From NCBI GenBank assembly GCA_024639905.1, contig JAHEGE010000004.1, positions 1 to 64,000 of the forward strand: a DNA stretch of 64,000 bases, in the 5' to 3' direction. This document shows positions 36,161 through 58,636 of this stretch, piece after piece. The position numbers were made by a program, and so were the translations under genes. The notes under the pieces were generated by a model. That model searched no databases. It had not been told where the DNA came from and saw only the letters and a program-made list of their open reading frames with translations. The stretch is from Gammaproteobacteria bacterium. GTDB lineage: Bacteria > Pseudomonadota > Gammaproteobacteria > Pseudomonadales > Pseudohongiellaceae. Each line of letters starts with the position of its first letter. The stretch's first letter is position 1.

Positions 36161-36204
36161 CCGGATAGATAGAGGGCGAACGATGAGATGTGGTGTGCAT
36201 CCTT

Positions 36205-36285
36205 TTCCTACGCCGGTATTAACCGGATCAGGTTCTAGGGTTCGCTGTGAACAGCATCTCAGGTCTTTCGACCACCCCTAAGGAA
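36205..36285 (-). ncRNA. TPP riboswitch (THI element)
   Basis: Reading the minus strand, the conserved core CTGAGAT (pyrimidine-binding helix) and GAACCTGATC...TAATACC...GCGTAGGAA are present in the right order. An outer stem TTCCT (36285-36281) with AGGAA (36209-36205) closes it. It binds thiamine pyrophosphate and represses the downstream receptor-pnuT-kinase genes when TPP is plentiful. The aptamer ends 74 bases before the receptor ATG. Confidence 0.95.
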
Positions 36286-36371
36286 CGCAGGCAGTATAGC
36301 AGCGCCGTTGTTAAATTCTAGTGCATATCGCGATAGAATCCCGTCACTAACTCAACTGCGGGAATCGTCAC

Positions 36372-49745: not shown

Positions 49746-51725
49746 CTAGCTCGCCTTGCGGTCGAGTTGCGAATTTTTGGCTTTCTTTAAATACACCAAC
49801 AACAAAGAGATCGCCGCGGGCGTCATGCCCGGAATTCGCGAGGCACGAGAAAGATTTTCAGGGCGGGCGTCGAGCAGTTTTTGTTTTAGCTCATTAGACA
49901 AGCCTTGCATCTGCGCGTAATCGAAATCCGCTGGTAACGCGGTCTCTTCATTTCGTTTCAGTTTATCGATCTCGCCTTGCTGGCGATCGATATACCCTTG
50001 ATACTTTAATTGGATACTAACCTGTTCTTGCACTTGCCGCTGCAGCTCCGCAGAAAGAGCAATTGCTGGCGCGTTGAGATTTTCACGCGCCGCATAGGCC
50101 TCAAAACCCTTGGGACTTTGCGCAAGCGCAGCAACGAGCGAGGTGTATTCTACCCGAGGGCGTGCAAGTAAGTCGGCGAGGCTTTGTTCCCGCGAAAGAG
50201 GCTTTTCTAATAACGCATCGATCCCAGCAGCCTCAGCAGAATTGGGTTGTATCCATGTTTTCTTTAACCACTGGAGTCGCTGTTCGATGAGTGTTTGTTT
50301 AATGCAATAAAAATCCCATCGCTCATCATCAACGAGTCCAAGTTCTCGCCCTTTAGGCGTGAGTCGCTGATCGGCGTTGTCTTCGCGCAGTGTTAGTCGA
50401 TACTCCGCACGGCTCGTGAACATGCGATAGGGCTCATTCGTGCCAAGGGTGATGAGGTCATCGACTAACACACCGAGATAGGCCTCATCGCGGCGCGGAC
50501 ACCATGACTCTTCGCCGCGCGCTGCGAGGCCGGCATTGAGCCCGGCCAAAAGCCCTTGTGCGGCAGCCTCCTCATACCCCGTCGTACCGTTAATTTGGCC
50601 GGCAAAATAAAGGCCTTTCACGAACTTAGTTTCGAGAGAATAGTGAAGATCGCGAGGGTCAAAGAAATCGTATTCGATAGCATAGCCGGGCCGGGTAATA
50701 AGCGCGTTCTCGAATCCTTTAATCTGCCTAAGCATTGCTACCTGCACATCAAACGGCAGGCTTGTGGAGATCCCGTTGGGATATAACTCGTTGGTGTTGA
50801 GCCCTTCTGGCTCAACGAAAATTTGATGTGAGTCCTTGTCAGCGAAGCGCATCACCTTGTCTTCGATAGACGGGCAGTACCGCGGACCGGTGCCTTCTAT
50901 GACGCCGGTGTACATTGGTGATCGATCAAGCCCGCCGCGAATAATTTCATGACACGCCTCGTTGGTCGAGGTGATGTAGCAGTTCACTTGCTGTGGGTGA
51001 TCGACGTCGCTGCCGAGATAGGACATCACAGGTAGAGGTGAATCGCCCTCTTGGGTTTGCATCACAGAAAAATCGACAGAGCGTGAATCGATCCGCGGCG
51101 GCGTGCCAGTCTTTAACCGGTTAACCCGAAACGGCAAGCTACGCAGGCGCTGAGCTAGGGCAATAGAAGGCTGATCACCTGCACGGCCGCCCGAGCTGTT
51201 TTCAAGCCCAATGTGAATTTTCCCCCCGAGAAATGTTCCAGCCGTGAGCACAACACGACGAGCTCTGATCAACACGCCCATCTGTGTAATAACGCCGCAC
51301 ACCTCGCCGTCTTCGATCAGCAGGTCGTCTACACCTTGTTGGAAGAGGCTAAGGTTCTCTTGCTGCTCCAACATACTGCGAATGGCTGCTTTGTAAAGCG
51401 CGCGGTCGGCTTGTGCACGCGTCGCCCTTACCGCGGGGCCCTTGCTGGCATTGAGCACGCGAAACTGGATGCCGGCTTTATCGGTGGCCTTAGCCATCGC
51501 GCCGCCCAGGGCATCGATCTCTTTGACCAAATGACTTTTACCAATTCCCCCAATTGCTGGGTTACAGGACATCTGCCCCAGCGTGTCGATGCTGTGGGTA
51601 ATGAGCATGGTCTGTACGCCTTGGCGGGCAGCCGCCAGCGCCGCCTCGGTACCAGCGTGTCCGCCGCCTATCACGATGACGTCATAGTGTGTGGGGTATT
51701 CCATGACTGCGGTTGAACTTGTCAT
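49746..51725 (-). CDS. mnmG: tRNA modification FAD enzyme MnmG (GidA)
   Basis: 659 residues as drawn; ATG at 51704 ([18 protein letters not shown]) fits the family better and would give 652. N-terminal FAD-binding [14 protein letters not shown], then [14 protein letters not shown] and [13 protein letters not shown], and helical C-terminal domain. With MnmE it installs the 5-carboxymethylaminomethyl group at U34 of several tRNAs. 8 bases upstream of rsmG. Confidence 0.97.
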
Positions 51726-52185
51726 TAGTAGTCACTTACTTGAAAGAAGAGTAAATAGGGTGTGTTAATAGAATGCCGAATCGATAATTATATAGAATTC
51801 AGCGTATTAGTGAATTTATTTATAGAAAGATCGTCAACGTTGCAAAAAATCAGCGTAGTAGGAAGTTGAGAGCCTGTGAGGCACAGGGTTTATTACTGTT
51901 ATTGATAGCTACGCGTTTTTCTGTGGAAAACCACTTTTAATTACCAGTTTACAATGAGTTAGACGACGGAAAACCTCGGTATAGTCACTCGGATATCGTG
52001 GTAAAAGCTCTGAATCAATGTGGATAAGATGAACTGCCGTGTATTTCCTTCTCTTTAGGCTTTGCCAAAGGTTGCAGCAAGCTGAAAGTTATCCCTCATA
52101 ATCCACAGCTTTATTTTGAATTCTTGAGAGTTGTTCTTCTTCTGCCCAGAGGGTGTCCTAGGCTTATCCACAGGTAACGTCCCTA
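51726..52185. other. mnmG-mnmE gap: DnaA boxes plus AT-rich tract (possible origin)
   Basis: 460 non-coding bases. Exact DnaA boxes TTATCCACA at 52164-52172 (plus) and its complement at 52019-52027. One-mismatch boxes at 52099-52107 (TAATCCACA) and 51922-51930 (TGTGGAAAA). An AT-rich tract runs from about 51757 to 51862. Size, spacing and composition suit an oriC, and E. coli oriC also adjoins gidA. However, genes on both sides run leftward, so replication bias does not switch here. Confidence 0.55.
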
Positions 52186-53607
52186 TTATTTACCTACGCA
52201 GAAATTAGAGAAGATCTCGCCAAGCAAGTCGTCGCTGCTCACTTCACCGGTAATCAAACCAAGCTCATTCTGCGCAAGTCGTAGGTCGTCGGCGAGAAGC
52301 TCGAAGGGCTGCCCCTCTTCCAAACCGGATCTGGCAGAGGCGACCAGCACGGCGGCGGCGCGTAATGCGATTAAGTGTCGTTCTCTTGCTACGAAGGCGC
52401 CCTCGACCAACGTGCTAAAACCAATCGCTCGCTTCAGCGCGTCGGTAAGCGCATCTATCCCTTGTGCTTGTTTTGCGGACAGCGTCACTGTAGGTAGCGT
52501 TAGTGGCGCGCCGCTATCAGTGTCTTGTAGGGCCTTGGGGAGATCGATGTCTCCCATGCCGATTTGTGGCGAGGAGAGCAAGTCAGCTTTATTCAACACG
52601 ATTAGAGTTTTGGTAAGCAGGGCCGGATCGTCGCGAAGGAGATCTGGGATGTCGTCTATGCTCAAACCACGCGCTTGCTCTTGCTGAATCGCGCTCGCAT
52701 CTAGAACGAGTAAAATTTTGTCCGCCTGTCGCACGGCCTCGCTTGCGCGCCTGACACCTTCTTGTTCTACGATATCATCGCTCTGCCTAAGTCCTGCTGT
52801 ATCGGTAATATGAACCGGCATGCCATCGATTTGAATGCGCTCAGATAACAGGTCACGTGTTGTTCCTGCTATGGCGGTGACGATCGCTGAGTCATTGCCG
52901 GATAGCGCATTAAGCAAACTTGATTTTCCAGCATTGGGCTTGCCGGCAATAACCACCTGCATGCCTTCTTTTAACAGTGCACCTTGCTGCGCTTGGGCAA
53001 GCGCGGTATCGAGCTGACCAGTTATGGTCTCTAACGTCTGAACGACGCGGGTCTGTGAGATTATATCGATGTCTTCGTCACTGAAATCGATCGCGGCTTC
53101 AATATTAACGCGTGCCTTAGTCAGTTCGGCGACTAAAACATTGACTGCGGCTGAAAACTCCCCGCTTAGGGTGCGCATGGCAGACTGTGCGGCCTGAGCA
53201 GAGCTGGCATCGATGAGATCTGCTATGGCTTCGGCTTGCACGAGATCGATTTTGTTGTTTAAAAACGCTCGTTCTGAAAACTCGCCTGGGTTGGCTATTC
53301 TCGCGCCCAGTTCGCATACCCGCTTGAGTAGCATCTGTTGAACAGCTGTGCCGCCGTGTCCCTGAAGCTCGAGGACGTCTTCGCCAGTAAAAGAGGCTGG
53401 ATTGGAAAAAAAAAGGGCTATGCCTTGGTCGAGGGTATTGCCCTCACCATCACAGAAATCGGCGTAGTGGGCGACGCGAGGCGTAGGGTCGAAACCAAGA
53501 ACTTGACGCGCAATAACACGCGCCTTAAGTCCTGACACTCGCACTACGCAGACTCCGCTTTTACCTGGAGCGGTGGCTAGAGCCGCGATCGTGTCGTTCG
53601 CACTCAT
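52186..53607 (-). CDS. mnmE: tRNA modification GTPase MnmE (TrmE)
   Basis: 473 residues. Tetrahydrofolate-binding N-terminus (IAALATAPGKSGVCVVRVSG), helical domain, G domain with GKPNAGKSSLLNAL (about 222-235), TTRD, DTAG and NKAD, and C-terminal CVGK matching the conserved CxGK. Works with MnmG. Confidence 0.97.
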   Translation of the reverse strand: MSANDTIAALATAPGKSGVCVVRVSGLKARVIARQVLGFDPTPRVAHYADFCDGEGNTLDQGIALFFSNPASFTGEDVLELQGHGGTAVQQMLLKRVCELGARIANPGEFSERAFLNNKIDLVQAEAIADLIDASSAQAAQSAMRTLSGEFSAAVNVLVAELTKARVNIEAAIDFSDEDIDIISQTRVVQTLETITGQLDTALAQAQQGALLKEGMQVVIAGKPNAGKSSLLNALSGNDSAIVTAIAGTTRDLLSERIQIDGMPVHITDTAGLRQSDDIVEQEGVRRASEAVRQADKILLVLDASAIQQEQARGLSIDDIPDLLRDDPALLTKTLIVLNKADLLSSPQIGMGDIDLPKALQDTDSGAPLTLPTVTLSAKQAQGIDALTDALKRAIGFSTLVEGAFVARERHLIALRAAAVLVASARSGLEEGQPFELLADDLRLAQNELGLITGEVSSDDLLGEIFSNFCVGK

Positions 53608-56351: not shown

Positions 56352-56920
56352 GGGGTATCACCTAAAAATTCGTCGTGACGCAGTTGACGCCACCTTTTAA
56401 TACGAGCCCTTTCATAAGGGGATGCGAATATTAGAGCCTTTGTGGATAAGATGCAACGCTTAGTTTACGTAAAAACCCCTTGTTTTTAAGCTTGTTGGCG
56501 AAGACATCGAGAGTGTCTTGTTGGGCGGGTGTTGGTGTTTAGTCGCCCTGGTAGTGTGTTCCCTGGTAAATAAGAGCTTGGGCACACCTTATCCTCAGGT
56601 TATCCACAAAGTTAATCTACTTGGATTGTGGGTAATTTCTTTGCTGTTTTTGTATCGGGAGCTTTTAGTATATTTAAGCTTCTGATTTAAATATCTTTAT
56701 TTCTGTTATTTGGAAACACAGTAACGGTGGATAACTTTATCCTAACGCTCTACACTCAAGCCTCGGTCGATTACCTCTCTCGGTTAATGCGAGATCGAGT
56801 AGACCGTGTTAATTGAGTCGATCAACAATAAAATAACGCGACCGCGTTGTGCCAAACCATCAATGGCAGGCGCGAGTGGCGACAGCCAGCAAACGCTGGA
56901 GATGCAGAATAGGGCCCCAC
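56352..56920. other. rpmH-dnaA gap: DnaA boxes, AT-rich tract, strand switch (likely oriC/dnaA control)
   Basis: 569 bases. Exact DnaA boxes at 56441-56449 (complement) and 56599-56607; near boxes at 56588-56596 (TTATCCTCA) and 56726-56734 (GGTGGATAA). The AT-rich stretch 56631-56712 could unwind. Leftward genes end and rightward genes begin here, as expected at a bidirectional origin. The boxes near dnaA may also serve autoregulation. Confidence 0.7.
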
Positions 56921-58636
56921 GTGTCATCAGAACACCTCGAATTAGTGACAACACCCCATCGATCAGCGAACCCGGCCGGGCCTAGCAGCCTTGTTAGCGC
57001 CGACAGCGTTGACAGCATTAATAGGTCAGCCGAGCCCGAAAGAGTCGCCCACGGCGCAGGCTCTACGCCAGACGCGGCAGAGCTATGGCGCGACTGCCTC
57101 GACATTCTTCGTCTGGAGCTTCCTGCTCAGGCGTTTAATACTTGGATCCGCCCGCTGCGTCCGCGCCTCGTTACAGTGCCTGCTTCAAACAGCTCTGCGG
57201 CGACGCTTGAAATGCAGCTACTCGCACCGAACCGATTCATTCAAGACTGGGTAAAGACCAAATTGTATGCTCAGCTGTGCTCTATTTTCGCTGGAATAGC
57301 GGTTAAAAGCGGCGAAAAAATCGGTTTAATAGGCGAAAGTCCTGTAATTTTAGTCGCCGATGCCCACAGCAGCTCCGGGTCACAGATCGAGAGGCCAGCG
57401 CCAATCGAGGCGGGTCAGGCGGCTGAGCAACCACGCAACCGCTATGGCAGTGAAGAACACCAGGCCCCCCCTTCCTATGGTTCACTTGTTGGAAGTGAAG
57501 GTTCACTCCAGGCGAGCTCTCCTGCGCGTGCCACGCCGCTTTCTACGAGAATGGCGCCGAGCAATGAGACGTCAGGATCCCTCGTCGACACAATTATTGA
57601 AGGAAAGCTTAGCCATCGAGGGACACTCAATCACGAGAACACCTTCGATAACTTCGTCGAGGGTAAGTCTAATCAGCTCGCGCGAGCGGCGGCGATGCAA
57701 GTTGCCGAGAATCCTGGTTTCGCCTATAACCCCCTCTTTATTTATGGCGGTGTGGGATTAGGTAAGACTCACTTAATGCATGCGGTGGGTAATCATCTCA
57801 GGTTAAAGAAGCCCAATGCGAAGATTGTGTACCTGCACTCTGAGACGTTCGTAGGCACCATGGTTAACGCGTTGCAGCTTAACGCTATCAACGATTTTAA
57901 ACGCTTCTACCGCTCGGCTGACGCCCTGTTGATCGACGACATTCAGTTTTTCGCAGGCAAGGAACGCTCACAAGAAGAGTTCTTCCATACCTTTAATGCG
58001 TTGCTCGAAGGCGGACAACAGATCATCCTCACTAGTGATCGGTATCATAAGGAAATCGATGGGCTGGAAGAACGGCTAAAGTCGCGCTTCGGTTGGGGGC
58101 TTACGGTGGCTGTAGAGCCGCCCGAGCTCGAGACACGCGCCGCTATTTTGATGAACAAGGCGGCACTTAGCCATGTGACGCTGCCCAACGATGCGGCGAT
58201 GTTTATTGCCCAGCGCTTACGCTCTAATGTGCGCGAACTCGAAGGAGCGCTCAAGCGCGTCATCGCTCATGCAAACTTTAAGGGCGAATCTATTTCCGTA
58301 GAGTTGATAAAAGAAGCGCTGCGAGACCTATTTTCCCTTCAGGACAAGCTGGTAACGATCGATAATATTCAACGCACCGTGGCTGAGTATTACAAGATTA
58401 AGATGTCCGACATGTTGTCGAAGCGCCGCAATCGCTCTGTGGCAAGGCCGCGACAGGTTGCCATGTGTCTATCTAAAGAACTGACCAATCACAGCCTACC
58501 CGAGATCGGTGACGGCTTTGGAGGCCGCGACCACACCACGGTGATGCATGCCTGCAAACAGATCGCGAACCTACGTCAGGGCTCGATCGATATCGAAGAA
58601 GACTATAACAACCTGCTAAGGCTGCTTTCGAGTTAG
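56921..58636 (+). CDS. dnaA: Chromosomal replication initiator DnaA
   Basis: 571 residues from GTG at 56921, with AGGG six bases upstream; GTG at 56849 would add 24. Domain I ([23 protein letters not shown]) starts about 55 residues in, so there is an unusual N-terminal extension. Domain II (about 150-240) is long and low in structure. AAA+ domain III has [18 protein letters not shown] (about 276) and [12 protein letters not shown]; domain IV ends with [15 protein letters not shown], the DnaA-box reader. E. coli DnaA has 467 residues. Confidence 0.95.

Follow-up and report, generated by a model that had tools for sequence, protein, structure and literature searches.

Both the region upstream of mnmG (gidA) and the region upstream of dnaA carry DnaA boxes in the genome of a Pseudohongiella-like gammaproteobacterium, which raises the question of where its chromosome starts to replicate. 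Origin prediction in Pseudomonadales usually points at dnaA, and the sequence-only reading had called the gap between mnmG and mnmE a second origin-like region. Our analysis favors a different ranking: this gap is probably a chromosomal oriC of the E. coli (gidA) type, the ancestral gammaproteobacterial kind, and most likely the principal oriC of this bacterium.

The mnmG-mnmE gap and its gene neighborhood

The window, that is the whole stretch of DNA analyzed, comprises 64,000 nucleotides. It makes up the first half of C3, a 127,644-bp contig in a draft genome of 2.67 Mb and 26 contigs. A minus-strand run consists of the atp operon, parB, parA, rsmG, mnmG, the gap, mnmE, yidC, rnpA, and rpmH, and is followed after rpmH by a plus-strand run of dnaA, dnaN, recF, and gyrB. 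Gene names were assigned by homology and position. The main features of the locus are as follows:

49746-51725, minus strand: mnmG (gidA), reading away from the gap and followed by rsmG, parA, parB, and the atp operon; open reading frame with protein matches in relatives and NCBIfam TIGR00136
51726-52185, unstranded: mnmG-mnmE intergenic region, proposed gidA-type (E. coli-type) oriC on the basis of its box cluster, the core profile, and the strand switch of a congener
52186-53607, minus strand: mnmE, open reading frame; its counterpart in congener G013, together with yidC, has lagging-strand composition
56352-56920, unstranded: rpmH-dnaA intergenic region, dnaA regulatory region and candidate alternative or accessory origin
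56921-58636, plus strand: dnaA, open reading frame with the start codon assigned by inspection (the longest open reading frame begins at 56849)

The 460-base gap had been delimited correctly in the sequence-only reading. It spans exactly 51726-52185, is bounded by the mnmG start codon on one side and the mnmE stop codon on the other, and is the intergenic region directly upstream of mnmG. In this genome and its relatives, mnmE adjoins mnmG with a gap in 28 of 30 loci. Among the nearest named relatives, MnmG is 76% identical to that of Pseudohongiella L182 and 70% to that of L188. Neither an Rfam family at gathering score nor a tRNA (ARAGORN) was detected in the gap. The sole Rfam family reaching gathering score in the window is a TPP riboswitch aptamer at 36188-36289 on the minus strand.

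A non-random cluster of DnaA boxes upstream of mnmG

DnaA boxes were scored against the reference TTATCCACA, a full match being termed exact and a single mismatch near. The following elements were found in the gap:

51732-51831, unstranded: tract of 72% AT and candidate DNA-unwinding element, separated by about 57 nt from the origin core described below
51922-51930, minus strand: R1-like DnaA box TTTTCCACA, one mismatch to TTATCCACA
52019-52027, minus strand: exact DnaA box, 97 nt from the R1-like box
52099-52107, plus strand: near DnaA box TAATCCACA, one mismatch to TTATCCACA
52164-52172, plus strand: exact DnaA box adjoining mnmE, match to TTATCCACA

The two exact boxes, the two near boxes, and the 100-base AT-rich tract announced in the sequence-only reading are thus all present. 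Four boxes were observed versus 0.115 expected, and none of 5000 dinucleotide-preserving shuffles reached at least four. Of the 18 exact boxes in the 2.67-Mb genome, two are in this gap and two in the rpmH-dnaA gap. Among the window's non-overlapping 100-mers, the tract at 51732-51831 ties with 186-285, and only 56612-56711 (73%) is more AT-rich. GATC is present in a single copy in the gap, giving no sign of dense Dam/SeqA control.

Counted from the R1-like box, the boxes follow the register -, -(97), +(177), +(242), which is not the enteric register R1(-)/+106(+)/+180(+). In E. coli K-12, boxes within one mismatch lie 168(-), 274(+), 309(-), and 348(+) nt from the mnmG start; the annotated oriC begins at 111 nt, with R1(-) at 168, R2(+) at 274, and R4(+) at 348. 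The -/+106/+180 register is found upstream of mnmG in named Vibrio, Photobacterium, and Enterobacterales (36 and 28 of 150 loci), and we do not take it as defining outside the enteric branch. A minus/minus pair spaced 97-99 nt, 97 nt in this genome, occurs in 18 of the 150 loci, nearly all of them from Pseudomonadales, and the -/+(117) spacing in 16 of the 150; L045 and L185 in this set are one contig.

The two nearest relatives (L031 and L181) have no exact box in the mnmG gap, and none of the 16 congener loci of the GTDB genus (L032-L047) has more than one there, counting boxes within one mismatch. Upstream of mnmG, 23 of 70 order loci are box-free. Among 80 named gammaproteobacterial loci, 68 carry at least three boxes in this position and five carry none. 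In L083, L085, L086, and L102, mnmE has moved away and the cluster stays by mnmG, a frequent pattern. In L050, L074, L077, L097, and L099, which belong to several families, about 3.5-9 kb separate the mnmG-side cluster from mnmE, and the cluster keeps with mnmG. The mnmE-yidC-rnpA-rpmH block is inverted in L186 (Porticoccus) and L091, where it runs in the same direction as dnaA and the box cluster upstream of mnmG remains; the block would therefore be co-directional with replication from mnmG.

A conserved origin core at mnmG

An alignment of congeners revealed a shared core composed of AT-rich DNA, about 20 nt of type TATTAATGTTGTTGTTAATAG, a spacer, and an R1-like TCTGT(G/T)GA. The motif was first spotted in an alignment that contained this window. 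The profile of this core was seeded with 26 relatives picked after the alignment, excluding this genome and including its nearest relative. In this genome, the core is:

51889-51933, plus strand: origin core, consisting of the trio-like TTTATTACTGTTATTGATAG (51889-51908), a spacer, and the R1-like box; profile match E 4.7e-7 in the gap set

When the profile was run against C3 and four other stretches, 51889-51933 was the sole significant match in the 127.6-kb C3 (E 4.2e-6). The match to the rpmH-dnaA gap of this genome was not significant (E 0.59). The R1-like box faces the AT-rich side and has the trio-like stretch ahead of it, with the triplet phase judged by eye. PMC5742627 gives the trio consensus as TA(A/G), along with the TTATT requirement of E. 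coli. The 60 nt to the left of the core are 52% AT here versus 74-90% in 20 of the 23 other rows, and are the most stable of the 24 rows.

In the family set, the core is found at mnmG in 17 of 19 loci at E <=0.01, the misses being L045 and L047. One of the 17 is this genome, and the other 16 are profile seeds except L064. No core was found in any of 17 family dnaA gaps or at 12 further family dnaA loci, where the best E was 0.067. Of the 70 loci in the order set, 33 carry the core at mnmG (23 seeds and 10 non-seeds including this one). On the dnaA side, it was found at E <=0.02 in 4 of 48 gaps (L073, L089, L079, and L088). The mnmG-mnmE gaps of L073 and L089 are merely 138 and 84 nt long, no box was found within 1150 nt upstream of mnmG in L079, and L088 carries boxes at both the mnmG and the dnaA sides. 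The 80 named gammaproteobacterial loci have the core upstream of mnmG in 25 cases (E <=0.01); among named gammaproteobacterial dnaA gaps, it was found in 2 of 24 (L187 and L228).

The profile recovers most congener cores, which a strict one-mismatch box scan misses. It misses L188, L045, and L047, where TAG/CAG-type repeats and a CTGTTGA box were seen by eye. E. coli oriC is barely recognized, scoring 5.6 bits at R1 and 5.4 at R4, so that R1 and R4 are not separated. G087 gives a better match at dnaA (E 0.0054) than at mnmG (E 0.31), yet its skew minimum lies at mnmG, and is a warning against judging by profile alone.

Strand asymmetry places the switch at the mnmG gap in a congener

Composition was compared between leading and lagging genes. 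Over the 128 kb of contig C3, around the proposed origin, the asymmetry is absent: the G:C odds ratio of lagging versus leading genes is 1.04 (z 1.0), and no block shows it clearly. It is strong in congener G013 (odds ratio 0.65, z -16.6, over 400 kb). In the genome studied here, mnmE and yidC are low versus both leading and lagging genes, and flanking genes lean likewise. Raw 4-fold skew of mnmE and yidC was dropped as direct origin evidence for this genome, because the leading and lagging genes of its own contig are alike. With codon-family stratification, the mnmE/yidC G:C ratio is below 1 in 53 of 57 genomes and the T:A ratio in 47 of 57, the 57 being those of the 70 loci with mnmG, mnmE, and yidC in the expected orientation; some control genes (parB, gyrB) are low too. 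Core location is associated with this skew (Mann-Whitney p 0.004, 29 versus 4 genomes), an association weakened by the relatedness of the genomes, and the 23 genomes with no core match have a median lower still (0.63 versus 0.75).

G013 was the one congener with enough sequence for a strand-switch test. Its mnmE and yidC differ in G:C from leading genes (odds ratio 0.60, z -3.8) and resemble lagging genes (0.90, z -0.8); in T:A they are not lagging-like (1.16, z 1.2). Values as low as the higher of the two occur in 1 of 160 leading and 40 of 144 lagging genes. The cumulative GC minimum falls at C5:237957, just within mnmE next to the gap, and the maximum-likelihood switch point over 400 kb at C5:237471, within the mnmG-mnmE gap. 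The runner-up, at the mnmE/yidC boundary, scores 3.36 log units less, and for points at the dnaA end the deficit is 6.56, or 8.36 if a doubtful small ORF is counted. When the G013 frequencies were applied to 18 other family loci, the sum over mnmE, yidC, and rnpA was lagging in 15 and the flanking genes were leading in 15. This genome is an exception, since its flanking genes lean lagging too.

Genomes in which the two sites are separated bear on the same question. In 17 of 25 genomes, at least about 8 kb separates the starts of mnmG and dnaA; eight of the 17 were examined (G055, G057, G087, G133, G082, G104, G130, and G042). In G057, G087, and G130, where dnaA is 8-39 kb off, the cumulative GC minimum coincides with the mnmG-side cluster or is no more than about 1.5 kb away; in G130 it is 63 bp from the mnmG match. 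In G055 and G104 the GC-skew minimum is 2.7 and 3.8 kb from dnaA, respectively. G133 has a minimum near dnaA by GC, with which the keto skew disagrees, the minimum of G082 is 27 kb from dnaA, and G042 has no minimum within 80 kb. In G130 and G057, the intervening stretch contains genes of both strands, and gene-level tests on it favored neither site. As skew minima lie at mnmG in some genomes and near dnaA in others, both sites appear to be used within the order.

These results bear on the label that the gap had been given. It is origin-like: its elements are arranged and oriented as in E. coli oriC, and its core is kept in relatives. The word "second" is probably wrong, because G013 switches strand at the mnmG gap and not at dnaA, and because the core profile matches the mnmG gap and not the dnaA gap.

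The rpmH-dnaA gap and alternative readings

The rpmH-dnaA gap contains five boxes within one mismatch, two of them exact (56441-, 56589+, 56600+, 56627-, and 56726-), versus 0.134 expected, a number reached in none of 5000 shuffles. The segment 56663-56712 is 82% AT, and the gap holds the most AT-rich 100-mer and 50-mer of the window. A box cluster and an AT-rich element are therefore both present between rpmH and dnaA, as for a dnaA-type origin, but the order's core is not (E 0.59, as above). At 569 nt, the gap is longer than in the 15 congeners measured (216-363 nt); in G024, two contigs appear to break off within it. Two or three boxes are present in 13 of these 15, typically TTATCCACA and TTATCAACA in rightward orientation, 15 nt apart. 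Close to the dnaA start, a leftward TTATCCAC(C/T) box (here 56726-56734, minus strand) recurs in several congeners, including L154 and L156, and lies on the other strand in L149 and L150; it possibly serves dnaA autoregulation. We read the gap as mainly a dnaA control region, which may also assist the origin.

The sequence-only reading had assigned both an E. coli-like and a Pseudomonas-like origin signature to this genome. The co-occurrence stands, as box clusters exceed chance in both gaps, about 4.3 kb apart. The contrast drawn between the two bacteria was too sharp: P. aeruginosa has been reported with two origins, and L071, L072, and L098, probably Pseudomonadaceae, have a box cluster upstream of mnmG.

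The working origin might instead be the rpmH-dnaA gap, with the mnmG gap older or accessory, comparable to the two origins, one alone essential, that are reported for P. aeruginosa (PMC4403523). The five boxes, the AT-richness and unusual length of the dnaA gap, the lower AT content beside the mnmG core in this clade, and the skew minima near dnaA in G055 and G104 agree with such an arrangement. We nevertheless regard it as unlikely, given that dnaA gaps have no significant core here or elsewhere in the family, that the switch point of G013 falls at the mnmG gap, and that the core in that gap is kept across the genus.

Somewhat less credible is a single bipartite or dual origin of about 5 kb, in which DnaA complexes at dnaA would help melting at the mnmG gap. 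Bipartite origins in which dnaA forms the spacer are known (PMC4285127), and Neptuniibacter L187 is the sole examined locus where the core is significant at mnmG as well as at dnaA (E 9.6e-4 and 9.4e-4); the present genome has non-random clusters in both gaps. In the order set, however, the dnaA gap was measured for 27 loci that have the core at mnmG, and in none of them is it significant on both sides; G057, G087, and G130 have their skew minimum at mnmG with dnaA 8-39 kb off. A related and rather doubtful idea is that the genome is caught between two origins and that both may fire, in which case a recent or mixed switch could account for its lack of strand asymmetry. It is prompted by the lower AT content beside the mnmG core in the clade and by the 569-nt dnaA gap with its five boxes and the window's most AT-rich tract.

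That the boxes merely regulate mnmG transcription or titrate DnaA is very improbable. In favor of this reading, the mnmG promoter presumably must also sit in the gap, and E. coli gidA transcription is reported to be cell-cycle controlled. Against it, the E. coli gidA promoter itself is reported to be without DnaA boxes, and regulation alone fails to predict the core in oriC order, the G013 switch, or skew minima at mnmG with dnaA elsewhere.

We keep the dnaA-side and dual readings beside the mnmG-gap oriC because the DNA beside the core is less AT-rich here, the nearest relatives have no exact box, the profile leaves R1 and R4 unseparated, and the strand test comes from one congener.

Proposed initiation at the mnmG gap and comparison with known origins

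What was observed directly is the set of boxes, with a clustering beyond chance, the core kept in relatives, and the strand switch in one congener. From these we infer DnaA binding, melting, initiation, and the use of the mnmG gap in this genome, whose own C3 is without strand asymmetry and whose AT-rich tract is displaced from the core by about 57 nt. With the mnmG gap as oriC, DnaA would bind the R1-like box at 51922- and the boxes at 52019-, 52099+, and 52164+, and would oligomerize toward mnmG across the trio-like stretch at 51889-51908. AT-rich DNA on the mnmG side would then melt and helicase would be loaded. The dnaA-side boxes, 4.3 kb off, would mainly serve dnaA control and may assist.

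The separated genomes, together with a congener whose sites are 4-5 kb apart, point to a difference between families of one order: the origin lies at one or the other of two neighboring ancestral sites. A switch between gidA-type and dnaA-type origins thereby becomes testable in close relatives. In the open-licence literature, we found no paper on Pseudohongiella together with a replication origin, and none on the origin assignment of this lineage or on a between-family difference of origin site in the order.

The closest model is E. coli oriC, in the order mnmG-oriC-mioC, and its likeness extends to Vibrio and Enterobacterales. In both cases the site is directly upstream of mnmG, the AT-rich side is toward mnmG, a leftward R1-type box is near that side, and further boxes follow rightward. 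On the far side, mioC in E. coli is replaced by mnmE here. The second box here is leftward at 97 nt, whereas E. coli R2 is rightward at 106; the gap here has one GATC, and E. coli oriC matches the profile weakly (5.6 bits).

P. aeruginosa resembles this genome in having two candidate origins in one chromosome. We presume that its second origin is the gidA-side site, and order members that are probably Pseudomonas have an mnmG-side cluster with 99-nt minus/minus spacing. In the literature on this precedent, parAB is placed about 7 kb from oriC and recF about 4 kb, distances that we read as indicating a dnaA-side oriC. According to PMC4403523 (citing Jiang 2006; Yee and Smith 1990), P. aeruginosa has two autonomously replicating origins, and the difference is that one alone is reported as essential there.

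The Halomonas-like genomes G057 and G087 and the named Halomonas loci L211, L215, and L227 likewise have a box cluster upstream of mnmG. The spacing is 99 nt in G057, L211, and L227, and the skew minimum lies at the cluster in G057 and G087. The two genomes were assigned as probably Halomonas-like from their boxes, G087 matching L215 almost box for box and G057 having the 99-nt register. They differ from the present locus in that dnaA is 22-39 kb off and mnmE was not found in the stretch examined. A gidA-side oriC is of a known kind; what this analysis adds is its assignment for this lineage and evidence for a difference in origin site between families of one order.
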